From an uncultured Methylophilaceae bacterium (GTDB taxonomy: Bacteria; Pseudomonadota; Gammaproteobacteria; Burkholderiales; Methylophilaceae): a stretch of 45,876 nt of DNA. The notes under the pieces were generated by a model. That model ran no database searches and had not been told where the DNA came from. It saw nothing but the letters and a program-made list of their open reading frames with translations. The stretch's first letter is position 1. Each line of letters starts with the position of its first letter. A program made the position numbers and the translations under genes. The DNA is taken from assembly GCA_903863255.1 (NCBI GenBank), contig CAIPBJ010000115.1, forward strand, positions 1-45,876, in the 5' to 3' direction. Shown piece by piece: positions 5,192 through 16,687 of the stretch.

Positions 5192-5557
5192 TTAGGAAAC
5201 TATCAACAATCCATTCATGTCCTCGTGCCCAGAACCACAAAAAATGTCACAATAAAAAGTGAAAGTTCCAGCTTTGTCCGGAGTGAAGGATAGCCGAGAT
5301 TTCATTCCAGGTACTATATCGGTACGGACTTTGAAATCAGGAAGATTAAAACCCATTAAAGTATCTAATGATGTAAATTCCAAAATGGCCGGAACGCCCA
5401 TTTTCAAATGGATTTCATTAGGAGAAAATTCAAACTTTTTAGCAATGACAAAAATTACATTTTCTTCAGGTTCTGAAAATGCAAAGGAACAGATTGCACC
5501 GATCCCAAGAATCGAAGAGCCTATCAGAAACTTTCTCCTATCGATCTTCATATCCAT
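5192..5557 (-). CDS. Tat-exported cupredoxin with CuA-like C-terminal motif
   Basis: This 121-residue cupredoxin would act in the periplasm. Residues 6-11 (DRRKFL) form a twin-arginine motif followed by a hydrophobic stretch ending near Ser-Phe-Ala. The C-terminal loop carries Cys103, Cys107, His111 and Met114 in the spacing C-x3-C-x3-H-x2-M, as in the CuA centre of cytochrome oxidase subunit II and nitrous oxide reductase. The other CuA histidine of COX2 (in the His-Ser-Phe before Val-Pro and the later Ile-Pro-Gly) aligns here with Met68 in Leu-Met-Gly-Phe, so the site is not a standard CuA. The gene follows the metallophosphoesterase by 2 bases and is clearly in its operon. A role as a copper or electron carrier linked to envelope stress is an inference. 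Confidence 0.8.
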   Translation of the reverse strand: MDMKIDRRKFLIGSSILGIGAICSFAFSEPEENVIFVIAKKFEFSPNEIHLKMGVPAILEFTSLDTLMGFNLPDFKVRTDIVPGMKSRLSFTPDKAGTFTFYCDIFCGSGHEDMNGLLIVS

Positions 5558-5559
5558 GA

Positions 5560-6465
5560 TTAACTCTTGATTACCGGGTATTCTTTTATATCAAAAGCAT
5601 AGTTTTTACTTCCCGCATCCACTTCACGGAACCCTAAACCTCGGTAGGGCTGAGACATATCCCACGGAACAGGCATTCTTTTAGGTTGTGACCCAGGCGG
5701 AGGTAGTGGAAACATCAATGATTTAGCAGAGTGATGAGCTATGTGACCGGTCATGAAATGATTTTCTTGGTGAATATGACCATAGAATACGGTTACATTT
5801 GAATGGGCCATCAGAATTTCGATAGCTTTTGAACCGTCACGAGTCGCCCAGTCCCATTGAGGATATAAATCGAATAAAGGCCGATGAGTAAAAACAACGA
5901 CATTGGCATCTTTGGTTAATTTACTTAGATCATCGGCAAGCCAAGCCAATTGCTGATCTCCTAAAGCAGCGGCGGGATCAGAAACATTATCAAGAACGAT
6001 GAAATGTATCCCCTTGTGATCAAAAGTATAATGAGTTTCTCCAAAGAACTCTTTATAAGCTTCACCGTGATCCAATGAAGCGTCGTGCTCACCAGGCATG
6101 AATCTTACATTCTTAACTTTGAGTTCAGAAACGATAGCCTTGAACTCACCCAATCTTTTACGACGTTCATTGGGATTGTCTGTAGTATGGGTTAGGTCAC
6201 CAGTAAACATAATAAAATCAGGAGGTTGCTGAAGACTATTAACTGCAGAAACCGCCTTAATTAATGTGCCCTTAGCATCAGGATTGGGAGGACCTTCAAA
6301 TCCCCAATGTGTATCTGAAAGTTGAACAAAATAAAAATCATTAGTCTCTTCAGATTTTTCTTTGTATGCACCCATTGAAGCACAGCCAGATAGACTAGAA
6401 GCGAATACTACTCCACCAAGTCCAGCTAATCTTAAAAAGTCGCGTCTATTAATCGAATTCTTCAC
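5560..6465 (-). CDS. Tat-signal lipoprotein-like metallophosphoesterase
   Basis: This 301-residue protein of the calcineurin-like phosphoesterase superfamily carries a twin-arginine motif (NRRDFLRLAG, residues 6-15) and then Leu-Ser-Gly-Cys28, a possible lipobox, so it may be a Tat-exported lipoprotein. Metal-site motifs appear in order: Asp51-x-His53, Gly-Asp90, Gly-Glu-His-Asp (125-128) where GNHD is usual, Thr-His-Arg and Gly-His-Ile-His near residue 230. The Asn-to-Glu change affects a metal-bridging position, though I believe relatives in this subfamily share it. It forms a two-gene operon with the cupredoxin and is divergent from the ECF sigma factor across 99 bases. The substrate is unknown; cyclic nucleotides, nucleotides or phosphodiesters are possible. 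Confidence 0.85.
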   Translation of the reverse strand: MKNSINRRDFLRLAGLGGVVFASSLSGCASMGAYKEKSEETNDFYFVQLSDTHWGFEGPPNPDAKGTLIKAVSAVNSLQQPPDFIMFTGDLTHTTDNPNERRKRLGEFKAIVSELKVKNVRFMPGEHDASLDHGEAYKEFFGETHYTFDHKGIHFIVLDNVSDPAAALGDQQLAWLADDLSKLTKDANVVVFTHRPLFDLYPQWDWATRDGSKAIEILMAHSNVTVFYGHIHQENHFMTGHIAHHSAKSLMFPLPPPGSQPKRMPVPWDMSQPYRGLGFREVDAGSKNYAFDIKEYPVIKS

Positions 6466-6480
6466 GTATATCTCCTATTG

Positions 6481-6512
6481 TTAAACGATTAGTTGGTCGT
6501 TAACATGTATTA
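6481..6512 (+). promoter_or_regulatory. Candidate ECF-type promoter in the divergent sigma/phosphoesterase gap
   Basis: TTAAACGA (6481-6488) is followed 18 bases after its TTAAAC by ATGTATTA. The same TTAAACGA octamer precedes GTGTATAA upstream of the lipid operon (8814-8843) with a 16-base gap. The first octamer is also the left arm of an imperfect inverted repeat with TCGTTAA at 6497-6503. The AAC in the upstream element fits ECF promoters in general, but the unequal spacing weakens the case. Confidence 0.25.
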
Positions 6513-6564
6513 CTTAAATCGCTCAATATTTATTCCCAAAAATTCAATCTAAGGGAATAAAATT

Positions 6565-7167
6565 TTGATTAAGTTGGTATTGACTGATGAAATATGGAAA
6601 CTTGCGATGAATGAATCAAACAGGAAGCAACGTTTTCAGACAACGGTAATGCCACATATAAACTCAGCATTTAATCTGGCTCGTTGGCTGACTCGTGGAA
6701 ATCAAGAAGCTGAAGATATAGTGCAAGAGGCCTATTTAAGGGCATACAAGTTTTTTGATAGCTTTCATGGGGAAGATGGACGAGTCTGGTTACTAGGAAT
6801 CGTCAGGAATACCTTTTATACATGGCATCATCAAAATAAATTGCAGACCCAGTTTGTTGAATTCGATGAAGAACTTCATGGATCAGAAGCAAATGAAAAT
6901 TTGAGGGATGATGAATATAATCCTGAAAACATATTAATTCAAAAGGATAATCAACGCATTATTCAGAATGCACTGAATCAATTACCTATCGAGTTTCGTG
7001 AAGTTATGGTGATGAGAGAGCTTGAAGAATTGTCATATAAACAAATTGCCGAAATCACACAAGTTCCAATGGGTACAGTGATGTCGCGCTTGGGACGAGG
7101 CCGAAAACAGCTTGCAACTCTTCTTCATTCTGGGATAAACAATGGGGGGGGGCATAATGAACCATGA
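6565..7167 (+). CDS. ECF (RpoE-like) RNA polymerase sigma factor
   Basis: This 200-residue extracytoplasmic-function sigma factor would direct RNA polymerase to stress promoters. Region 2 is seen at about residues 35-90 (ALARWLTRGNQEAEDIVQEA-like acidic helix, then the Trp-Leu-Leu-Gly-Ile-Val-Arg-Asn segment) and region 4 at about 135-190 (Leu-Pro-x-Glu-Phe-Arg-Glu-Val and the MGTVMSRLGRGRKQL recognition helix). The TTG at 6565 is a good start because AAGGGA lies 8 bases upstream; the next ATG is 42 bases later. Its last codons overlap the start of the anti-sigma gene and contain a run of nine G. It is divergent from the Tat-substrate operon and upstream of tatA-like and lipid genes, which are likely targets. 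Confidence 0.92.
   Translation: MIKLVLTDEIWKLAMNESNRKQRFQTTVMPHINSAFNLARWLTRGNQEAEDIVQEAYLRAYKFFDSFHGEDGRVWLLGIVRNTFYTWHHQNKLQTQFVEFDEELHGSEANENLRDDEYNPENILIQKDNQRIIQNALNQLPIEFREVMVMRELEELSYKQIAEITQVPMGTVMSRLGRGRKQLATLLHSGINNGGGHNEP
7144..7152 (+). repeat. Run of nine G at the sigma/anti-sigma overlap
   Basis: The homopolymer encodes three Gly residues at the sigma C-terminus and also supplies the G-rich ribosome binding site for the anti-sigma start at 7157. Such a run is unusual in this AT-rich DNA. Loss of one G would join the two frames into one continuous polypeptide. Confidence 0.9.
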
Positions 7168-7957
7168 AGAAGCGCTGAACCAAATAGCGGCTTATATAGA
7201 TAACGAACTTAGCATTTCTGAAGCTGATACGCTAGCTAAGCACATAGCTGATTGTAAGGTATGCCAGCTTGAATATGAAACGCAAATAAATACAATCTCC
7301 CTCGTTAAAAAAAATGCTAATTATTTTGAAGCGACACCCATGTTTCTTAGTCAATTAGATCAATCGATTCATGAATCAGTAGGTAAATCCACCCCAAAAA
7401 ATGTTATTCAAAAACGATGGAATATAAATTTTGGTATCTCATGGGCGAACATTGGAACCATGATGATTTCATTGATAGCACTTGTATGGAGCACGTCACT
7501 ATTTTTGGCTATACCAAACACAGAAGAGAGGCTTACTGATGAACTGATTTCCAGTCATGTACGTTCTCTTCAGGTCGATCATTTATCGGATGTCATTTCT
7601 ACCGATAAACATACAGTTAAACCTTGGTTCAATGGCAAAGTTGATTTCTCACCTAGCGTAATAGATTTTGCCGAGTCAGGGTTCCCTTTAGAGGGGGGTC
7701 GTTTAGACTATGTTAATGGTAAGACCGTTGCAGTGCTTATATATCGACATAATAAACATGCAATCAACCTGTATGTTTGGCCAGAAAATAATAAGGACCA
7801 CCAAATAAAAGAGGAAAGCCGTCATGGGTTCAACGCTTTCCAATGGGTATACCAAGGAATGCAATACTGGATGATATCTGATTTAGAGGAAGGAAAATTG
7901 GAAAGTTTTGCAAATAGGGTTCAGGATGAAATCATCAAATCCCGACCTCAAGGATAA
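7157..7957 (+). CDS. Membrane anti-sigma factor with zinc-finger (zf-HC2) domain
   Basis: This protein of about 266 residues has a cytoplasmic anti-sigma domain with the His29-x3-Cys33-x2-Cys36 zinc motif, one membrane segment at about residues 98-119, and a periplasmic domain of about 145 residues. The latter contains the family-typical run Val-Lys-Pro-Trp-Phe-Asn-Gly-Lys and a later Ile-Asn-Leu-Tyr-Val-Trp-Pro. It should hold the upstream sigma factor at the membrane until an envelope signal releases it. The ATG at 7157 fits family N-termini; an in-frame ATG at 7142 would add five residues, three of them Gly. The gene overlaps the sigma gene by 11 bases. There is no ChrR-type cupin domain, so it is not a ChrR orthologue. 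Confidence 0.9.
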   Translation: MNHEEALNQIAAYIDNELSISEADTLAKHIADCKVCQLEYETQINTISLVKKNANYFEATPMFLSQLDQSIHESVGKSTPKNVIQKRWNINFGISWANIGTMMISLIALVWSTSLFLAIPNTEERLTDELISSHVRSLQVDHLSDVISTDKHTVKPWFNGKVDFSPSVIDFAESGFPLEGGRLDYVNGKTVAVLIYRHNKHAINLYVWPENNKDHQIKEESRHGFNAFQWVYQGMQYWMISDLEEGKLESFANRVQDEIIKSRPQG

Positions 7958-8008
7958 TGATTGGGGTATCAGTAAGCTATTTAAACTGTAGTATAGGAGG
8001 AAAATGAA

Positions 8009-8212
8009 ATGGGTTCATTCAGTATCTGGCATTGGTTAATCGTACTGATAATTGTAATGTTGATCTTTGGAACTAATAAACTTAAAAATATGGGTAGCGA
8101 CTTAGGAGAAGCGGTGAAAAATTTTAAGGATGCAATGAATAATGACAATAACATGCCAAATCATGACAAGATTTCATTAGGGTCAATTTCAGAAAATGAA
8201 CTCAAAAAATAA
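8009..8212 (+). CDS. tatA: TatA/TatE-like twin-arginine translocase subunit
   Basis: This 67-residue protein has one membrane helix at the N-terminus (residues 5-20), the conserved Phe-Gly (residues 20-21), and an amphipathic helix with Leu-Gly and Ala-Val-Lys-x-Phe-Lys, followed by a short polar tail, which is the TatA architecture. A strong AGGAGG lies 8 bases before the ATG. No tatB or tatC is nearby, so this is probably a stand-alone TatA paralogue in addition to a housekeeping set elsewhere. Its location 1.5-3 kb from two genes with twin-arginine signals and just after a sigma/anti-sigma pair suggests a stress-inducible Tat component. Confidence 0.9.
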
Positions 8213-8328: not shown

Positions 8329-8730
8329 ATGTCAAATATTGAATATCGCCAAAATTTCCCGCTTAATGCATTGGACATTGTTAGGTTATTTGAGTCATCA
8401 GGTATTCGCCGTCCTACAGATGATGTGCATCGAATTGAGCGAATGTTTGCAAATTCCAACCTGATTATATCTGCTTGGCATGAAGATCACTTAATAGGTG
8501 TTTGTCGTGCACTAACTGACCTGAATTATTGTTGCTACCTATCAGACATTGCCGTTGATAGGAACTTCCAGAATCATGGAATAGGAAGCGAGCTGATCGC
8601 AAGAATTAAAGCGTTTATCGGGAACGAAGTATCGCTAATTTTAATCTCAGCCCCGGGTGCACAGGAATTTTATGAAAGAATCGGCTTTGAAAGAAGTCAA
8701 TACTGCTTTACAGCGAAACGTTCCAAATGA
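8329..8730 (+). CDS. GNAT family N-acetyltransferase
   Basis: This 133-residue protein has a compact GNAT fold: a central strand with Leu-Ile-Gly-Val-Cys-Arg, the Ile-Ala-Val-Asp strand, then the acetyl-CoA pyrophosphate loop Arg-Asn-Phe-Gln-Asn-His-Gly-Ile-Gly (matching Q/R-x-x-G-x-G/A with His at the first glycine-rich position), and the C-terminal Tyr-Glu-Arg-Ile-Gly-Phe typical of the family. The substrate, a protein N-terminus or small amine, is unknown. It lies 116 bases after tatA, so co-transcription is possible, and 131 bases before the lipid operon. Confidence 0.82.
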   Translation: MSNIEYRQNFPLNALDIVRLFESSGIRRPTDDVHRIERMFANSNLIISAWHEDHLIGVCRALTDLNYCCYLSDIAVDRNFQNHGIGSELIARIKAFIGNEVSLILISAPGAQEFYERIGFERSQYCFTAKRSK

Positions 8731-8813: not shown

Positions 8814-8843
8814 TTAAACGAATTGTTCTAATCACGTGTATAA
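8814..8843 (+). promoter_or_regulatory. Candidate promoter of the lipid-modification operon
   Basis: TTAAACGA (8814-8821) and GTGTATAA (8836-8843) lie 16 bases apart (measured from TTAAAC) and about 20 bases before the GTG start. The first element is identical to one upstream of the ECF sigma gene. This is the only motif linking the operon to the sigma factor and could be chance. Confidence 0.3.
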
Positions 8844-8861
8844 AAAATAAGAAAGTTAATC

Positions 8862-9902
8862 GTGAGCCTGACTCATATTGGCATTACCCTTGCAGAAAAT
8901 GGCTTTATACCAGATTTCATTATACGAAAAGGAATACGTAATTTATGTATTCAAAGATTGAATGATATTGCTTCAGATAATTGCGAAATATCAAGCCAAA
9001 TTCGTCAAATATTTTTTGAAACCATGGAAACAGCAGAAATAGCTCCGTTAGCGGAAATGGCTAATGATCAGCATTATGAAGTTCCGGCTGCTTTTTTTAA
9101 TTTTGTTTTAGGAAAAAATAGAAAGTACAGCAGTTGTTATTGGCCAAACGGCGTTCATAACCTTGACGATGCCGAAGACATGGCATTATCTGAAACGCTT
9201 AGACATGCAGAATTGGAAGATGGTCATGAAATATTAGAGTTGGGTTGTGGCTGGGGTTCCTTATCTATTTTAATGGCTAAGCGCTTTCCTAAAAGCAAAA
9301 TCACTTCCGTTTCAAATTCAAATTCTCAACGTAAATTCATAATGGACGAGGCATCTAAATTAGGGCTTCAAAATTTAAATGTTATTACTTGTGACATGAA
9401 TAGTTTTGATACGAATGCCACTTATGATCGTGTTGTTTCAGTAGAAATGTTTGAGCACATGAGAAACTATGATCGACTTTTTGAAAAAATTAGCAGATGG
9501 TTAAATCCTAACGGTAAATTCTTTATGCATATTTTTTGCCACAAAAGTGTACCTTATGCCTTTGAAGTCAAGGATGAAGGAGACTGGTTGAGTCAATACT
9601 TCTTTTCAGGTGGCTTCATGCCAAGTGACGATACACCTTTACGGTTCCAAAAACATCTAAAAATTTCGAAACAATGGCGATGGGACGGAACACATTACAA
9701 AAATACAGCGAATGCATGGCTTAAGAATATGGACGATAACATAGAATCAATTCGAGCTATTTTTAAAGTTTGTTACGGTGAAAGACACACAAAATTATGG
9801 GTATTTCGCTGGAGAATATTTTTTATGTCCTGTGCTGAATTATTTGGCTTAAGAAATGGTCAAGAGTGGTGGGTAAGTCATTATCTTTTTGAAAAGACAT
9901 AA
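8862..9902 (+). CDS. SAM-dependent methyltransferase, CFA-synthase-like (short form)
   Basis: This 346-residue protein belongs to the cyclopropane-fatty-acid synthase-like methyltransferases but lacks part of the N-terminal lipid-binding region of full Cfa proteins. The SAM motif I is ILELGCGWGS (residues 124-133). Tyr-Ser-Ser-Cys92-Tyr-Trp aligns with the Cys139 region of E. coli Cfa, and Glu-Met-Phe-Glu-His is retained in the later active-site segment. It starts at a GTG with only a weak upstream purine stretch, but the N-terminus (Pro-Asp-x-x-Ile-Arg-x-Gly-Ile-Arg) is what I recall for this subfamily. It is the first gene of a seven-gene operon; the next starts 3 bases after its stop. It probably methylates an unsaturated acyl chain, but a small-amine substrate is not excluded. 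Confidence 0.85.
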   Translation: MSLTHIGITLAENGFIPDFIIRKGIRNLCIQRLNDIASDNCEISSQIRQIFFETMETAEIAPLAEMANDQHYEVPAAFFNFVLGKNRKYSSCYWPNGVHNLDDAEDMALSETLRHAELEDGHEILELGCGWGSLSILMAKRFPKSKITSVSNSNSQRKFIMDEASKLGLQNLNVITCDMNSFDTNATYDRVVSVEMFEHMRNYDRLFEKISRWLNPNGKFFMHIFCHKSVPYAFEVKDEGDWLSQYFFSGGFMPSDDTPLRFQKHLKISKQWRWDGTHYKNTANAWLKNMDDNIESIRAIFKVCYGERHTKLWVFRWRIFFMSCAELFGLRNGQEWWVSHYLFEKT

Positions 9903-9905
9903 CTG

Positions 9906-10679
9906 ATGTTTATTGCTTCATATTATTTCATAACATTATTGCCATTGTTGGGCTTGGCAGTAATTGGTTGGTTAATCAGCCTCAAAAACGATAATGTGAC
10001 GATTGTAGATAGCTTATGGGCCATTTTTTTCCTGTTCGCATCAGTAACAAATTACATGCTTGATTCTTTTCATAGCGAAAGAGCCCAAGTTGTCTTGATA
10101 CTTGTTTTGATTTGGTCCATTAGATTGTCGACTTATTTATATTTAAGAAATAGGCACAAACCTGAAGATCATCGTTATCAGTTAATTCGTTTAAGGAATG
10201 AACCTCATTTTAAAATAAAAAGCATTTATATAGTTTTTGGATTGCAAGCTTGCCTGGCCTGGTTTATATCTTTACCGCTTCATGTAAGCCTTCATTCAAC
10301 ATCCCAATTGAAAATTGCAGATTACATTGGAGTAAGTTTATGGCTCATAGGAATGTTATTTCAAACAGTTGGAGATTTTCAGTTAGCTCGTTTTAAAGAT
10401 GATTTAGGCAATATCGATAAGGTATTGGCTTCTGGTTTGTGGCGTTATACGAGACACCCAAACTATTTCGGAGAATCCTGCATTTGGTTTGGTTACGGCT
10501 TAATTGCAATAGGTGCTGGTCAATGGTGGACGATAATTTCTTCTTTTTTGATGACCTATTTATTGATAAACATCACAGGTGCTAGATTACTTGAATCCGA
10601 TATCGCCGAGCGACGACCGGACTATAAAAAATATATTCAGAACACCCCCCAATTTTTCCCATGGTTTCCAGAAAGTTAG
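9906..10679 (+). CDS. DUF1295 membrane protein (steroid 5-alpha-reductase-like)
   Basis: This 257-residue protein has about six membrane segments. The C-terminal motif Arg-Tyr-Thr-Arg-His-Pro-Asn-Tyr-Phe-Gly-Glu (near residues 180-190) is the cofactor-binding signature shared by DUF1295, steroid 5-alpha-reductases and isoprenylcysteine methyltransferases. Family members reduce activated double bonds with NADPH or transfer methyl groups; DUF1295 itself is poorly characterised. Tight spacing on both sides places it in the lipid operon, where it might reduce a methylated or unsaturated acyl intermediate. That role is inferred from context. Confidence 0.82.
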   Translation: MFIASYYFITLLPLLGLAVIGWLISLKNDNVTIVDSLWAIFFLFASVTNYMLDSFHSERAQVVLILVLIWSIRLSTYLYLRNRHKPEDHRYQLIRLRNEPHFKIKSIYIVFGLQACLAWFISLPLHVSLHSTSQLKIADYIGVSLWLIGMLFQTVGDFQLARFKDDLGNIDKVLASGLWRYTRHPNYFGESCIWFGYGLIAIGAGQWWTIISSFLMTYLLINITGARLLESDIAERRPDYKKYIQNTPQFFPWFPES

Positions 10680-10685
10680 TTAAAA

Positions 10686-11240
10686 ATGGCACACAGTTTT
10701 GTTAAAAATCTACTGACGGGAATTTGTGCATTTTTATCAGCGTGCACAAATTTACCCGAAATTAAGACTGTAGATAATGTAGATCTGAACAGATTTATGG
10801 GGGATTGGTATGTTGTAGCATGTATACCTACCTTTATTGAAAAGGATATTTACAATGCAGTCGAATCATATAAATTGAACTCAGATGGAACCATAAAAAC
10901 GCATTTTACTTTTAGAAAGGGTGGGTTTGATGGAGAGAAAAAAGAATATGAACCCAAAGGTTATGTAATTCCAAAAACAGGCAATGCATTATGGGGTATG
11001 CAATTTATTTGGCCTATCAAAGCAGAATACAGGATTGTCTACCTAGATGAAGGTTATCAGTTAACCATTATTGCAAGAAATGCGCGTGATTATGTTTGGT
11101 TAATGTCACGTAAACCTGATATTTCTGATAAACAATATCAAACCTATGTAAATAAGATTAAAGATATGGGATACGATATAGATAAACTGGTAAAAATTCC
11201 GCAGCACTGGGATAAGCAAGCTGAAAATGAAGTCGAGTAA
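10686..11240 (+). CDS. Blc-like lipocalin lipoprotein
   Basis: This 184-residue lipocalin has an N-terminal lipoprotein signal ending Leu-Ser-Ala-Cys20, so the protein is likely anchored to the outer membrane. The lipocalin signature Gly-Asp-Trp-Tyr-Val-Val (residues 39-44) and the late Arg-x-Tyr-Val-Trp-Leu-Met-Ser-Arg strand match bacterial Blc, which binds fatty acids and lysophospholipids in the periplasm. The C-terminal Ile-Asp-Lys-Leu-Val-Lys-Ile-Pro-Gln is also typical. It sits between DUF1295 and the desaturase with gaps of 3-6 bases. In this operon it may bind or move modified or damaged acyl chains. Confidence 0.87.
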   Translation: MAHSFVKNLLTGICAFLSACTNLPEIKTVDNVDLNRFMGDWYVVACIPTFIEKDIYNAVESYKLNSDGTIKTHFTFRKGGFDGEKKEYEPKGYVIPKTGNALWGMQFIWPIKAEYRIVYLDEGYQLTIIARNARDYVWLMSRKPDISDKQYQTYVNKIKDMGYDIDKLVKIPQHWDKQAENEVE

Positions 11241-11243
11241 AAG

Positions 11244-12158
11244 ATGTTAAAAAATTTGTTTGCCTGGTTTGATAGCTATTCAATCAACGCTTCAGATAAT
11301 AGTTCTGAAGAAATTGTTCTTATAAGAGTCGTTCCCTTCATACTGTTGCATGTAGCTTGTATTGGTGTCTTCTTTGTAGGATTTAGTCAATTTGCGTTGA
11401 TGGTATCAATCATTCTTTACTTGTTGAGAATGTTCGCTATAACGGGGTTTTATCACCGTTATTTTTCTCACAAGGCTTTTAAAACCTCTCGTTTTGTGCA
11501 ATTTGTTTTTGCTTTCTTGGCTGCAAGTGCTGCACAAAGAGGCCCCCTATGGTGGGCGTCTCATCATCGACATCACCATGCTCATTCCGATAAACCGGAT
11601 GACAGCCATTCACCATTGCAAAACGGATTCATCTGGAGCCACGTTAGCTGGTTTTTAACTAATAAGAACTTCATGCCAAAGTCTGAGCGGATTAGGGATT
11701 TATTGGTCTATCCAGAACTCAAGTTTTTAGATCGATTTGATCTTATTGCACCGCTGTTTTTAGCTTTTGTTTTATATTTTTTTGGAGCTTTCTTAAAGAT
11801 TTATGCACCAGAACTTGGAACCAATGGATTTCAGCTTTTGGTTTGGGGTTTTGTCATCTCTACAGTCGTCCTCTACCATATGACATTTACCGTAAATTCC
11901 TTGGCGCATGTATGGGGTAAGCGTCGTTTTATCACAAATGATAATAGCCGTAATAATTCCATAATAGCTATTTTAACTTTAGGGGAAGGTTGGCATAACA
12001 ATCATCATCATTTTCCTAGTTCTGCGAGACAGGGGTTTTATTGGTGGGAAATTGATTTGACTTACTACGGGTTGAAAATTTTATCGGGGTTTGGCCTCAT
12101 TTGGGATCTGAGGAAAGTACCCTCAGAGGTTTTATCAGTTAAAAGAGTGACTCGATGA
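11244..12158 (+). CDS. Delta-9-type acyl desaturase
   Basis: This 304-residue integral membrane di-iron desaturase shows all three histidine boxes: His-Arg-Tyr-Phe-Ser-His (71-76), His-His-Arg-His-His-His (107-112) and His-Asn-Asn-His-His-His (251-256). About four membrane helices lie between them. Enzymes of this class use O2 and an electron donor to introduce a cis double bond into acyl-CoA or phospholipid chains. The stop overlaps the next start by 4 bases (ATGA). In this operon it would provide or place the double bond used by the CFA-like methyltransferases. A desaturase that acts on an already methylated chain, as in furan fatty acid synthesis, is another possibility. Confidence 0.9.
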   Translation: MLKNLFAWFDSYSINASDNSSEEIVLIRVVPFILLHVACIGVFFVGFSQFALMVSIILYLLRMFAITGFYHRYFSHKAFKTSRFVQFVFAFLAASAAQRGPLWWASHHRHHHAHSDKPDDSHSPLQNGFIWSHVSWFLTNKNFMPKSERIRDLLVYPELKFLDRFDLIAPLFLAFVLYFFGAFLKIYAPELGTNGFQLLVWGFVISTVVLYHMTFTVNSLAHVWGKRRFITNDNSRNNSIIAILTLGEGWHNNHHHFPSSARQGFYWWEIDLTYYGLKILSGFGLIWDLRKVPSEVLSVKRVTR

Positions 12159-13408
12159 AAATAGCTATTATTGGTGCCGGAATAGCGGGAAACACAATTG
12201 CCTGGCATTTATACAAGAATCATAAGATCACGGTTTATGAAGCCAACGAACACGTTGGTGGACATACACAAACACATGAAGTTGAAGCCTTTGGTCAAAA
12301 ATATCACATCGATACGGGTTTTATAGTATATAACAATTGGACTTATCCCAATTTTATCAGAATGCTTGACGAACTCGGGATCGAAACGCAATCAAGCCAT
12401 ATGAGCTTTAGCGTAAGGAATGAAGCTTCTGGCCTTGAATATAATGGCACTAGCTTAAATAGTTTATTCGCTCAAAGATCCAACCTTTTTCGTCCAAAGT
12501 TCTTGTGGATGATTAAAGAGATACTTCGGTTTAATAAAGAAGCGCCACGTGTTTTAAATAGCACAAATGATGATATGCTTTTTGGCGAGTATTTAAAGAA
12601 ACATCGATATAGTCAATCATTCGTGAATGAATATATTATTCCCATGGGTTCAGCCATCTGGTCTGCAGAGCCTAATCAATTATTTGAATTCCCTGCTAAG
12701 TTTTTCATTCGTTTTTTTCACAATCATGGCATGTTAAGTGTTACTGATAGGCCAGAATGGCGTGTGATTAAAGGGGGTTCAAAAGAATATGTCAATAAAT
12801 TAACAGAAGGTTTCAAGGACCGTATATTGGTAAACACTCCTGTAGAAAAGGTTACACGTAAACCAAAAACTGTATTAGTTAAAGCGAAAAGGGAGAAAGA
12901 AGAAGAGTTTGATTGGGTATTTTTTGCATGTCATAGTGACCAAGTGCTTGAGATTTTGAGTGATGCGAGTAACGATGAGAAGGAGATACTTGGTTCGATT
13001 CCTTATCAAACTAATCGAATCGTTTTACACACTGATATTAGTCTCATGCCAAAACGTAAATTAGCTTGGGCAGCATGGAATTATCATTTGACCTCTCGAC
13101 CATTAAATCAGGCCGCAGTCACTTACAATATGAACATTCTTCAGTCCCTGTTCTCGCCAGAGCCTTTTCTTGTAACGCTCAATCATACTGACGGTATTAA
13201 TCCAAATAAGATAATTAAAACGCTTAACTATTCCCATCCAGTTTTTAATGTAAAAGGGATAGATGCCCAATCTAAACATGCGAAAATCAGCGGCCTGAAT
13301 AGAACATCATACGCAGGAGCTTACTGGCGAAACGGATTTCATGAAGATGGCGTGGTGAGTGCTCTGACGGCTATTCAGCAATTTGAATTTGCACAGATGA
13401 ATACGTGA
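12155..13408 (+). CDS. FAD-dependent amine-oxidase-like oxidoreductase
   Basis: This 417-residue flavoprotein has the dinucleotide-binding motif Gly-Ala-Gly-Ile-Ala-Gly at residues 7-12, the Glu of the ribose site near residue 30 in the next strand, and Gly-Gly-His after it. The NAD(P)-binding/amine oxidase family includes carotenoid desaturases and protoporphyrinogen oxidase. The C-terminal Ala-Gly-Ala-Tyr-Trp-Arg-Asn-Gly-Phe-His-Glu-Asp-Gly is the FAD-contact segment usual for the subfamily found beside DUF1365 and CFA genes. The exact reaction is unsettled to my knowledge; oxidation of a fatty acyl chain is the common proposal. It is joined to the desaturase by a 4-base overlap and followed by DUF1365 after 7 bases. 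Confidence 0.88.
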   Translation: MKIAIIGAGIAGNTIAWHLYKNHKITVYEANEHVGGHTQTHEVEAFGQKYHIDTGFIVYNNWTYPNFIRMLDELGIETQSSHMSFSVRNEASGLEYNGTSLNSLFAQRSNLFRPKFLWMIKEILRFNKEAPRVLNSTNDDMLFGEYLKKHRYSQSFVNEYIIPMGSAIWSAEPNQLFEFPAKFFIRFFHNHGMLSVTDRPEWRVIKGGSKEYVNKLTEGFKDRILVNTPVEKVTRKPKTVLVKAKREKEEEFDWVFFACHSDQVLEILSDASNDEKEILGSIPYQTNRIVLHTDISLMPKRKLAWAAWNYHLTSRPLNQAAVTYNMNILQSLFSPEPFLVTLNHTDGINPNKIIKTLNYSHPVFNVKGIDAQSKHAKISGLNRTSYAGAYWRNGFHEDGVVSALTAIQQFEFAQMNT

Positions 13409-13415
13409 ATCAATT

Positions 13416-14162
13416 ATGGAAAAGCTTGAAAGTGCTATATATACAGGTAAGGTTTATCATCAGCGCTTCCTGCCGGTATTCCATGGATTTAATTATTCAC
13501 TTTTTATGATGTATATCGATTTGAAGGAATTACCTACTTTATTTAAACCATTCCGGTTTTGGTCTTTAGAGCACTGGAATATTGCTAGTTTTTTTAGAAA
13601 AGACTATGCAGATAGAGAAGTTAACGAACTAGAAGAATCAATTAGGAATCTAATAAAAAAAGAAACGGGTCAAAGCAGTACAGGACCAATACGAATCCTA
13701 ACTCATTTACGCTATTTTGGTTTTATATTCAATCCAGTAAGCTTTTATTATTGCTTCGATAATCAAGGTCAAACAGTTGAATTTATCATTGCAGAAATCA
13801 CCAATACTCCATGGGGAGAAAGGCATAGCTATGTACTAGATTGCGGAACCCAGTCTTCACCTTATCATTTTCACTTTAAGAAATCATTCCATGTATCGCC
13901 ATTCATGCCGATGGAAATGAATTATGACTGGCAATTTAATAAACCTAATGATGAGCTAGTCATTCACATGGAAAACCTAAAAAACCAAATAAAACAGTTT
14001 GATGCACTATTGGTTTTGAAGCGTGTGGAAATAAATCAAAGCAATATGTATAAATTCTTGGTGATGTTTCCGTTCATGACTCTTAAGATAATAATTTCTA
14101 TTTATTGGCAAGCTCTTTGGCTAAAGATTAAACGCGTACCCTTTTTCCCACATCCAAAGTAA
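13416..14162 (+). CDS. DUF1365 protein
   Basis: This 248-residue DUF1365 protein shows the N-terminal Tyr-x-Gly-x-Val-x-His-Gln-Arg-Phe-x-Pro and the central Arg-Tyr-Phe-Gly-Phe-Ile-Phe-Asn-Pro-Val-Ser-Phe-Tyr-Tyr-Cys, which is the family hallmark as I recall it. The C-terminal ~40 residues are hydrophobic and may contact the membrane. The family almost always lies between a FAD amine-oxidase-like gene and a CFA-like gene, as here, which implies a shared step in acyl-chain modification. Its biochemical activity is not established as far as I know. Confidence 0.88.
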   Translation: MEKLESAIYTGKVYHQRFLPVFHGFNYSLFMMYIDLKELPTLFKPFRFWSLEHWNIASFFRKDYADREVNELEESIRNLIKKETGQSSTGPIRILTHLRYFGFIFNPVSFYYCFDNQGQTVEFIIAEITNTPWGERHSYVLDCGTQSSPYHFHFKKSFHVSPFMPMEMNYDWQFNKPNDELVIHMENLKNQIKQFDALLVLKRVEINQSNMYKFLVMFPFMTLKIIISIYWQALWLKIKRVPFFPHPK

Positions 14163-14165
14163 ATA

Positions 14166-15464
14166 ATGAATATGTCTGAAATTCAAACCAAAAATATTCA
14201 ATTGCTATCAAGAATTACGCCTAAGCCAAGACGATTAGACCGCTTAGCGAAAGATATTCTGCTCAATCGATTAGCTAAATTAGAACACGGTACTATAACT
14301 ATAATAGACAACACGACTAGCTTGAAAAATAAACTGATATTTGGAGCCAGTCATTCGCAAACTTCTTTGGCGAATATTCATGTCACACTGGAAATAAATA
14401 ATTCGCAGTTTTATGGGGAAGTGGTTTTTGGTGGGTCTATTGGAGCAGGCGAGGCATACATGCTTGGTTATTTCAATTGTGACAACCTACCCAATCTAAT
14501 TCGAATGATGGCTCGTAATCAATCATTACTGGATTCAATCGAATCTAGTTTTGCAAAACTGACGGCACCGATTCAGAAGTGGATACATTTCGTCAATAAA
14601 AATACGCAACAAGGTAGTCGCAGGAATATTGCGGCGCATTATGATTTAGGTAATGATTTTTTTAGATTGATGCTCGATCCAACAATGATGTATTCATCTG
14701 CAATTTTCGAACATCCTGAACATACTTTAGAGCAAGCGTCCTTAGCTAAAATTAAACGTATTTGTAATAAGCTCGATTTAAAAGAATCGGATCATCTTTT
14801 AGAAATAGGCACTGGTTGGGGTGGGTTTGCAATCTTTGCAGCAAAGAATTACGGATGCAAAATTACCACTACAACAATATCAGAACAGCAATTTTTGCTG
14901 GCGATTAAACGTATTGAGGATGAAGGTCTCAAGGACAAAGTCACCGTATTACTCTCAGACTATCGTAACCTAAGCGGAAGATATGACAAGTTGGTATCAA
15001 TTGAAATGATTGAAGCAATAGGGCATCAATTTTACGACACATTTTTCGCAAAATGCAGTCAATTGCTCAAGCCTAATGGCATGATGCTTCTACAAGCCAT
15101 TACAATTTCAGATCAGCGCTACGATTATTCAATCAAGTCTGTTGATTTTATTCAGAGATATATTTTCCCGGGTAGTTGTATACCTTCAGTTACAGCTATG
15201 ATTAATAGCATTACTAATTCATCGGATATGCGTTTATTTAACCTAGAGGACATTGGACCTCATTATGCAAAGACACTAGCCGTATGGCGGGAAAATTTCT
15301 TTAAGAATATCGATAAGGTAAGATCGTTAGGTTATCCAGAAACGTTCGTTCGTATGTGGGATTTTTACCTATCCTATTGCGAAGGCGGTTTTGAGGAGCG
15401 TGTATTGGGTGATGTGCAGATGCTTCTTGTAAAACCAGAAAACAGAAGATCCCCAAGAATTTAA
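14166..15464 (+). CDS. Cyclopropane-fatty-acyl-phospholipid synthase family methyltransferase (long form)
   Basis: This 432-residue protein has full-length Cfa architecture: an N-terminal lipid-binding domain (about 1-150) and a SAM-methyltransferase domain with motif I LLEIGTGWGG (211-220). Compared with E. coli Cfa, the bicarbonate-site residues differ: Cys139 aligns with Ser178 (Met-Met-Tyr-Ser-Ser-Ala) and His266 with Gln310 (Leu-Leu-Gln-Ala-Ile). Glu239 is kept as Glu283, Ile268 as Ile312 and the later Tyr317 as a Tyr in Gly-Pro-His-Tyr. I believe this variant site is common in CFA proteins coupled to amine oxidase/DUF1365 genes. It may make a methylated or methylene product rather than a cyclopropane, which is an inference. 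It is the last gene of the operon. Confidence 0.88.
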   Translation: MNMSEIQTKNIQLLSRITPKPRRLDRLAKDILLNRLAKLEHGTITIIDNTTSLKNKLIFGASHSQTSLANIHVTLEINNSQFYGEVVFGGSIGAGEAYMLGYFNCDNLPNLIRMMARNQSLLDSIESSFAKLTAPIQKWIHFVNKNTQQGSRRNIAAHYDLGNDFFRLMLDPTMMYSSAIFEHPEHTLEQASLAKIKRICNKLDLKESDHLLEIGTGWGGFAIFAAKNYGCKITTTTISEQQFLLAIKRIEDEGLKDKVTVLLSDYRNLSGRYDKLVSIEMIEAIGHQFYDTFFAKCSQLLKPNGMMLLQAITISDQRYDYSIKSVDFIQRYIFPGSCIPSVTAMINSITNSSDMRLFNLEDIGPHYAKTLAVWRENFFKNIDKVRSLGYPETFVRMWDFYLSYCEGGFEERVLGDVQMLLVKPENRRSPRI

Positions 15465-15850: not shown

Positions 15851-16687
15851 ATGGAAAATCAGAATCTAATGACCCTCTCTCAATTTGCCGTAAAGGCAAG
15901 AAAGGAAATTGGTCGAATTAAAGTAGCTGATTTAATGACGGATTCTCACTATGCAACTAATCTGCTGATCAGGTCATATTTTTCCAAGGACAAAGAACTA
16001 ATCGAAATAGCAAGAAAAGCCAGTAATGCCCTTGATTTAAGTTTGATGCATGCGATCGAGAAATATATTACCTTCATCACCAGCAAAGGGCAAAATCAAA
16101 ATATCTTAATAGTGCAAGATTATTTAGTTCGTCTAACCAATTTTCTAAGCCATGTAAATGGAGATGGGTTGTCTTACCGTAAGGCGATTAATGCATTTCT
16201 AAAGACCTTGAGGACCGAAGAAAGACCCTATTGTCTGAATCTTGCAAGAGAGTTTTTTCCATTCTGGATTGAAGTAGTTAAATCAGTTACTTCATCAAGC
16301 AAAGGCAATCTTTTTAATTTAATCTCGCTCAATAAACAACCTAGTCATAAGATGTTGTTAGAAGTATGGAATAACATCGACCATGAAAATGTTACGGAAA
16401 GAGAAAACATACCTCTGAGACACTATTCAGAATCAATGGATAATATTGGTATCGATCAGGAAGTGATTCATACTCGAAAAAAGATTGCTAAGATCATTAC
16501 AAAAGAGTTAAGAAACCATAATGAAACATTCGAAATGAATTATCGAAATGCTGTGAACAATACTCAATATCTATTTAAAATTCAGAATGTAAAGCGGGTT
16601 TTCATATGCGTTTCAAGAGAATTTTATTATTTTTGTATTAATCATCCTGAAGCCCATAAATTTATTTTATATCATGAAAGATTTTAG
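15851..16687 (+). CDS. Hypothetical protein, no family recognised
   Basis: I do not recognise this 278-residue protein. It has no signal peptide or membrane segment, is basic and mostly helical by composition, and contains several aromatic-rich stretches near the end (Tyr-Tyr-Phe-Cys, His-Lys-Phe). It is preceded by a 9-bp palindrome and sits alone between the lipid operon and a convergent minus-strand gene. The length and continuity of the frame support a real gene. The context gives no hint of function beyond possible self-regulation through the palindrome. Confidence 0.6.
   Translation: MENQNLMTLSQFAVKARKEIGRIKVADLMTDSHYATNLLIRSYFSKDKELIEIARKASNALDLSLMHAIEKYITFITSKGQNQNILIVQDYLVRLTNFLSHVNGDGLSYRKAINAFLKTLRTEERPYCLNLAREFFPFWIEVVKSVTSSSKGNLFNLISLNKQPSHKMLLEVWNNIDHENVTERENIPLRHYSESMDNIGIDQEVIHTRKKIAKIITKELRNHNETFEMNYRNAVNNTQYLFKIQNVKRVFICVSREFYYFCINHPEAHKFILYHERF

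Follow-up and report, generated by a model that had tools for sequence, protein, structure and literature searches.

Furan fatty acids are known oxidant-quenching lipids, and a pathway for their synthesis has been described in Cereibacter (Rhodobacter) sphaeroides and Rhodopseudomonas palustris. As reported there (PMC7380195), UfaM methylates cis-vaccenate, UfaD, for which an NAD/FAD-binding domain is predicted, yields a conjugated diene that carries the methyl group, UfaO (DUF1365) introduces an oxygen derived from O2 and thereby forms the furan, and FufM attaches a second methyl group. UfaD, UfaO and UfaM were shown to yield monomethyl furan fatty acids in both Rhodobacter and Rhodopseudomonas, and the genes are scattered, with fufM (RPA0924) apart from the ufa genes (RPA2569-2571) in R. 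palustris and ufaM apart from ufaD-ufaO in R. sphaeroides (PMC7380195). Here, we analyse a 45,876-nucleotide stretch of DNA (the window; contig CAIPBJ010000115.1 of assembly GCA_903863255.1) from an uncultured Methylophilaceae bacterium, in which all four of these enzyme families lie in one operon together with a desaturase, a lipocalin and a DUF1295 protein. The genes for UfaD, UfaO and UfaM are adjacent and in the same order as in R. palustris (L269). Most likely, this is a dimethyl furan fatty acid operon of an already known type, and what is new is chiefly its complete packaging, the re-reading of operons annotated for cyclopropane fatty acid (CFA) synthesis and the association with DUF1295.

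Comparable gene sets are found in three further settings. The operon smlt2375-smlt2367 of Stenotrophomonas maltophilia, controlled by sigma-Ec/ChrR, likewise features a desaturase, a FAD oxidoreductase, two CFA-annotated methyltransferases and a lipocalin with inner-membrane genes between them, but it has nine genes in another order, is divergent from rpoE-chrR and is described as directing CFA synthesis; with sigma-Ec active, its upregulation contributes to the MD tolerance and CAZ susceptibility that are then observed (PMC11832516). Judged from the gene order in loci L131-L133 rather than from their own sequences, its hypothetical genes probably encode DUF1365, DUF2878 and DUF1295 proteins. 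The Acinetobacter plasmid pYUSHP14-1 (NZ_CP090068, L120) carries all seven families of the window together on one strand, in the differing order lipocalin, desaturase, UfaD, UfaO, UfaM, DUF1295 and FufM and with a photolyase gene nearby, and such a plasmid-borne cluster suggests that the set may move horizontally. In Chlamydomonas, a eukaryote that we liken to the window by gene labels and not by sequence comparison, CFA1, CFA2, a DUF1365 gene and a DUF1295 gene need SAK1 for their induction by singlet oxygen, and a second table gives the gene identifier of CFA2 the label coclaurine N-methyltransferase (PMC4067076). According to a review, a comparable modification of fatty acids is the object of a search in Chlamydomonas (PMC8491031).

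The operon of the window spans positions 8862-15464 and consists of seven tightly packed open reading frames, all on the plus strand, as seen from the reading frame list and a Pfam scan. Gene 1 (8862-9902; 346 aa, GTG start) is a FufM-like S-adenosylmethionine-dependent methyltransferase with a CMAS match and the predicted methylase of the furan beta-carbon, and it is followed by gene 2 (9906-10679), a DUF1295 membrane protein of the steroid-reductase/ICMT fold (Pfam E=3e-65), and by gene 3 (10686-11240), a Blc-type lipocalin lipoprotein (Lipocalin_2, E=2.6e-40) with the lipobox LSAC in its translation. Gene 4 (11244-12158) encodes a membrane fatty-acid desaturase resembling stearoyl-CoA desaturase (FA_desaturase, E=3.9e-21; best PDB match acyl-CoA desaturase 1, E=2.7e-29). 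The remaining trio comprises gene 5 (12155-13408), a UfaD-like FAD enzyme (Pfam Amino_oxidase) predicted to turn a methylated monoene into a conjugated diene, gene 6 (13416-14162), a UfaO-like DUF1365 protein (E=1.4e-81) predicted to carry out the O2-dependent furan-forming step, and gene 7 (14166-15464), a methyltransferase with a CMAS match that is UfaM-like by clade and motif and is predicted to methylate a cis monoene. The original prediction, which had been made from the sequence alone, had described a lipid-modifying operon of seven genes of these named families separated by 3-7 bases or 4-base overlaps; the open reading frames and Pfam domains bear this out, with successive gaps of 3, 6, 3, -4, 7 and 3 bases. 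Its limits of 8814-15464 hold at the end only, as gene 1 starts with the GTG at 8862 and position 8814 lies outside its open frame. Downstream, at 15851-16687, there is a further open reading frame of 278 aa, for which neither Pfam nor NCBIfam gave a match at E<=0.001.

At the level of sequence, the UfaM-type, UfaD, UfaO and FufM families of the furan pathway are all present, and we consider it very probable that the operon makes a dimethyl furan fatty acid on membrane phospholipid, a reading based on homology, clade membership, the UfaM motif, conserved gene order and co-occurrence across genomes. In the proposed route, UfaM (gene 7) would methylate a cis-monounsaturated acyl chain and shift its double bond, UfaD (gene 5) would desaturate the product to a methyl-branched conjugated diene, UfaO (gene 6) would add oxygen from O2 and close the furan ring, and the FufM-like gene 1 would methylate the remaining free furan carbon. 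These four steps have been demonstrated for homologues (PMC7380195), and the proteins of the window presumably perform them in the same way. The chain would be of the 9D5 type if made from 18:1 delta-11 or of the 7D5 type if made from 16:1 delta-9, and the product may serve as an oxidant-quenching or signalling lipid. Of the other genes, gene 4 (the desaturase) probably aids the supply of monoene, gene 3 (the lipocalin) probably deals with lipids that have been modified or damaged, and gene 2 (DUF1295) would be an accessory. The end product, which had been held to be unpredictable from sequence, can thus be predicted, since UfaM, UfaD, UfaO and a FufM-like enzyme constitute the characterised dimethyl-furan set, and an open-ended guess is replaced by a definite and testable product. 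The precedent of furan synthesis by CFA-like and desaturase enzymes in Rhodobacter, also invoked originally, is relevant, but the characterised diene-maker is the FAD protein UfaD and not a delta-9-type desaturase, and the diene step is therefore assigned to gene 5, with the FA_desaturase of gene 4 as an extra. Because the host genome also holds two proteins of the FabA family (FabA and FabZ not being distinguished), gene 4 need not be the sole source of monoene.

The arrangement is well conserved. The comparison within the family covered 24 relatives, 16 of them with a strong UfaD match, gene content being judged in the stretches fetched. All seven genes stand in the relative order of the window in 12 of these 16, so that this arrangement is not due to chance and the keeping of gene order beyond the trio, which the original prediction had left to be checked, is confirmed. 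In the other four, the stretches of L041 and L045 end at a contig edge, L052 lacks genes 1 and 2, and L059 has the trio only. Nine more genomes with UfaD were found outside the family, one with all seven genes (L049), one with no lipocalin match (L050) and seven with the trio only. The bare, uninterrupted run of seven genes seen in the window occurs in none of the 12 seven-gene relatives of the family. A DUF2878-like gene lies between genes 1 and 2 in all 12 of them, and in 13/13 family stretches with both genes, and a DUF6134-like gene lies between genes 2 and 3 in 11 of the 12, and in 12/13 family stretches with genes 1 and 2; these calls were checked against Pfam in one relative (L036). Although the operon of the window has neither gene, both are adjacent on another contig of the same genome (C125; L275, 2171-6425), where a DCC-type thiol oxidoreductase lies on one side of them and an ABC transporter on the other; a MAPEG-family protein is also encoded nearby. 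Loss of the two genes from the genome is thus ruled out, and the nine-gene set is split across contigs, not reduced.

One alternative builds on this conservation, in that genes 2 and 4 are outside the characterised pathway and yet are kept in order in the family. The desaturase and DUF1295 might change the chain before or after furan formation and so lead to a new end product beyond the dimethyl furans. This is compatible with our preferred interpretation but unlikely, as the characterised pathway needs neither of these genes for its four steps and R. palustris makes 9D5 with UfaM, UfaD, UfaO and FufM (PMC7380195).

The step that distinguishes dimethyl from monomethyl furans would fall to gene 1. 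Among solved structures, this gene is closest to the coclaurine and pavine N-methyltransferases of plants (best coclaurine, E=5.6e-67), compared with 4e-26 for CFA synthase, and the claim of two CFA-family methyltransferases therefore stands as to two methyltransferases but not as to a common family. Three CMAS matches of R. palustris XCP exceed 100 bits (one adjoining UfaD/UfaO, one of CFA type and one of FufM type), and two further ones pass the Pfam cut-off at 44 and 30 bits. The same three-way set is described for R. palustris CGA009 (PMC7380195), and since the set of three in XCP mirrors that description, we took its FufM-type member as FufM. Gene 1 shares 48.5% identity with this candidate, a counterpart chosen by elimination and not the CGA009 FufM itself. 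In a tree of 63 rows, the FufM-like rows, including gene 1 and the Rhodopseudomonas candidates, form one clade of 26 rows with support 100/100. A catalytic-motif pattern for FufM and plant N-methyltransferases matched 43/58 rows and was not used as evidence. By these comparisons, gene 1 is not a cyclopropane synthase but FufM-like. The third CMAS protein of the genome (G000:C87:41406-42230, L002; open frame of 294 aa) sits on a very long branch and is neither clearly CFA, UfaM nor FufM.

Co-occurrence was examined in a phylum sample of 299 genomes including the genome of the window itself, with counts made on the 298 others. Search scores for gene 1 are bimodal, with 19 of the 299 genomes scoring at least 295.7 bits and the remaining matches listed scoring at most 106.6 bits. 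UfaD is present in 17 of the 18 genomes with FufM as compared with 74 of the 280 without it (p=8e-9, uncorrected for kinship). On this ground, too, it is distinctly improbable that the operon yields only a monomethyl furan and that gene 1 methylates something else, such as a lipid head group or an amine. The plant N-methyltransferases among its best PDB matches and the one FufM genome without UfaD (G075, no UfaD at E<=1e-20) would favour this, but it is opposed by the clade and the identity shared with the R. palustris FufM candidate, by the 17/18 co-occurrence and by the resemblance of the tested FufM itself to plant AT4G33110, with which it is 37.9% identical (PMC10940516).

Returning to the dimethyl furan interpretation, the trio resembles its counterparts in R. 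palustris XCP, where UfaD adjoins UfaO and UfaM: gene 5 is 41.9% identical to UfaD over 98%, gene 6 is 28.2% identical to UfaO over 95%, and gene 7 is 37.8% identical to UfaM. The UfaO/DUF1365 alignment comprised 33 sequences, and gene 6 gave no PDB sequence match at E<=1 and had no relatives among viral contigs. The tree of 63 rows places the 23 rows of UfaM type in a single clade (support 100/98) apart from the CFA synthases. The motif EMxEAxG is present in 38/38 UfaM-type rows, gene 7 included, and in 0/14 CFA-type rows, all 14 of which instead have GMFEHVG at the equivalent site; each of the two sets counts one gene twice, and frames of fewer than 200 residues and matches below 60 bits were excluded. 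Further, at the site of the active-site H of the CFA rows, position 266 in E. coli numbering, Q is found in each of the 38 UfaM-type rows. Gene 7 has EMIEAIG and Q, and thus not the CFA active site of GMFEHVG and H. Matches to UfaD and UfaO share a stretch with 37 of the 38 UfaM-type rows, the 38th (L069) being a short locus of the gene also represented by L135.

Plant cyclopropane synthases have the UfaM-type motif as well. That both CMAS genes are cyclopropane synthases, giving a cyclopropane or other modified acyl chains as proposed for the S. maltophilia operon, nevertheless has next to no likelihood, for the CFA synthase annotation there and in several plasmid records and the example of the plant enzymes are outweighed by the E, A and Q of gene 7 where 14/14 CFA rows have G, H and H, by UfaD and UfaO in the same stretch as 37/38 UfaM-type rows, and by the much greater nearness of gene 1 to N-methyltransferases than to CFA synthases. 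This suggests that similar operons annotated as directing cyclopropane synthesis more likely serve to make furan fatty acids, and the UfaM and FufM criteria taken together offer a simple means of re-annotating them.

A number of observations nevertheless weigh against a dimethyl furan operon. The identity of gene 6 to UfaO is low (28%), the FufM reference was chosen by elimination, genome G075 has FufM without UfaD, and the motif of gene 7, being shared with plant cyclopropane synthases, does not by itself exclude ring closure. In three loci (L134, L137 and L138), the stretch fetched contains UfaD, UfaO and FufM but nothing of UfaM type, and in L137 and L138 no DUF1295 either; ufaM is likewise unlinked from ufaD-ufaO in R. 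sphaeroides (PMC7380195). On plasmid pRL12 (NC_008378, L121), DUF1295 and FufM stand beside UfaD and an RpoE-ChrR pair, with no DUF1365 annotated or matched and only a short UfaM-like fragment. Finally, no regulator of the operon emerged from the searches for an extracytoplasmic function (ECF) sigma factor, a LitR-type protein or a shared promoter that are given below.

The DUF1295 protein encoded by gene 2 repeatedly accompanies FufM. In a scan of named genomes with gene 1, based on the best 80 of 376 loci and with Rhodopseudomonas among them, it adjoins FufM in 69 of the 78 loci with enough flank, many being from Rhodopseudomonas, Bradyrhizobium and their kin and hence not independent. In the phylum sample, it lies within 300 bases of FufM in 12/18 FufM loci and about 550 bases off in one more, and none was seen in five. 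It is present in 16 of the 18 FufM genomes as compared with 14 of the 280 others, and of the 30 genomes with DUF1295, 25 have UfaD and five have neither FufM nor UfaD (own genome omitted). The gene 2 profile matched AtTam46 best in the PDB (1e-6), followed by two steroid 5-alpha-reductases (7e-6 and 8e-5) and ICMT (5e-4). Against its predicted model (mean pLDDT 79.7; best Foldseek E-value 0.006), a sterol reductase, AtTam46, steroid reductases and ICMT score Z 11-14, which is only moderately strong for a helical protein, and as both kinds score alike, reductase and methyltransferase are not told apart by fold. A PNYxxE stretch like that of SRD5A is seen in the DUF1295 sequences, with E in 17/20 and Q in 3/20.

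Travelling with the furan gene set, DUF1295 may act on furan lipids too. Singlet oxygen opens furan rings to ene-diones. A DUF1295 enzyme of steroid 5-alpha-reductase type would, on a repair hypothesis, use NADPH to reduce the conjugated C=C of the ene-dione to a 1,4-dione that could re-close to the furan, and the furan lipid would then be a catalytic rather than a sacrificial quencher. The hypothesis draws on fold, motif and association, with the fold fitting methyltransferases about as well, and we regard such a repair function as improbable and put it forward as speculation; no earlier proposal of it was found by title or abstract in the open literature searched, which is not proof of absence. 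A deletion of RPA0923, which from L127-L130 and L146 appears to be the DUF1295 gene beside fufM, is present in the strain and plasmid tables of the R. palustris work (8 mentions), and monomethyl furans are still made by R. sphaeroides without RSP1087-1089 (PMC7380195). Often adjoining the furan genes, DUF1295 is thus a component worth testing.

The operon had also been thought to lie beside an ECF sigma/anti-sigma pair. The pair is indeed upstream, with the sigma factor at 6565-7167 and a zf-HC2 anti-sigma at 7142-7957, both on the plus strand and assigned by Pfam, but it does not directly adjoin the operon, as a TatA-like gene (8009-8212) and a GNAT gene (8329-8730) intervene, the latter followed by 131 free bases before gene 1. 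Further upstream, on the minus strand and divergent from the ECF gene, are a cupredoxin and a metallophosphoesterase gene, giving with the ECF pair and the TatA-like gene a group at 5195-8212. Cupredoxin, metallophosphoesterase, ECF and anti-sigma genes are also together in L266 and L268, with no TatA match there. An ECF match at E<=1e-15 occurs in nearly all of 40 relatives, but a close one in only three (64, 47 and 41% identity). In two of these (G031 and G007), the divergent metallophosphoesterase and cupredoxin genes are kept; G031 is without UfaD, and G007 has its furan operon on a different contig from the ECF homologue. In the third (G034), the anti-sigma match is weak, the 14 kb fetched contain no metallophosphoesterase or cupredoxin gene, and UfaD lies some 49 kb off on that contig. 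With close homologues in only three relatives, two of them with metallophosphoesterase and cupredoxin and one of these without UfaD, the pair was rejected as a dedicated regulator of the operon, and control by the pair is unsupported. Probably, it is part of a separate metallophosphoesterase/cupredoxin module and not of the furan system, which calls the assumed link into question, though it might still act on the operon from a distance.

The hallmark of the ECF11 RpoE-ChrR type is an anti-sigma with a zinc domain and a C-terminal cupin. In the anti-sigma of the window, no cupin was matched at E<=0.001; its only matches are to zf-HC2 in Pfam and, short of the cut-off, to RsrA in NCBIfam (ChrR was not searched for elsewhere in the genome). 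The best ungapped motif match between the promoters of the ECF gene and the operon was equalled in 20/300 shuffles and so has no good support, and scans for sigma-70 promoters and terminators found no more than in shuffled sequence. There is no LitR/CarH-type B12-binding MerR regulator beside the operon, and a search of the genome gave none of full length, only a weak match of 74 residues. In described systems, light induction of ufaM in Pseudomonas depends on LitR (PMC9758184) and the core sigma-E/ChrR regulon includes furan genes (PMC6852236). The pair of the window fits neither pattern, because its anti-sigma has only zf-HC2/RsrA, its close homologues stand with metallophosphoesterase and cupredoxin in two of three relatives and no convincing shared promoter motif was found. 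What lies upstream of the operon varies among relatives: a B12-type MerR regulator, a different ECF accompanied by an RskA-type anti-sigma, the two together, or none of these, one example of each regulator having been checked against Pfam (the B12-type MerR in L037 only).

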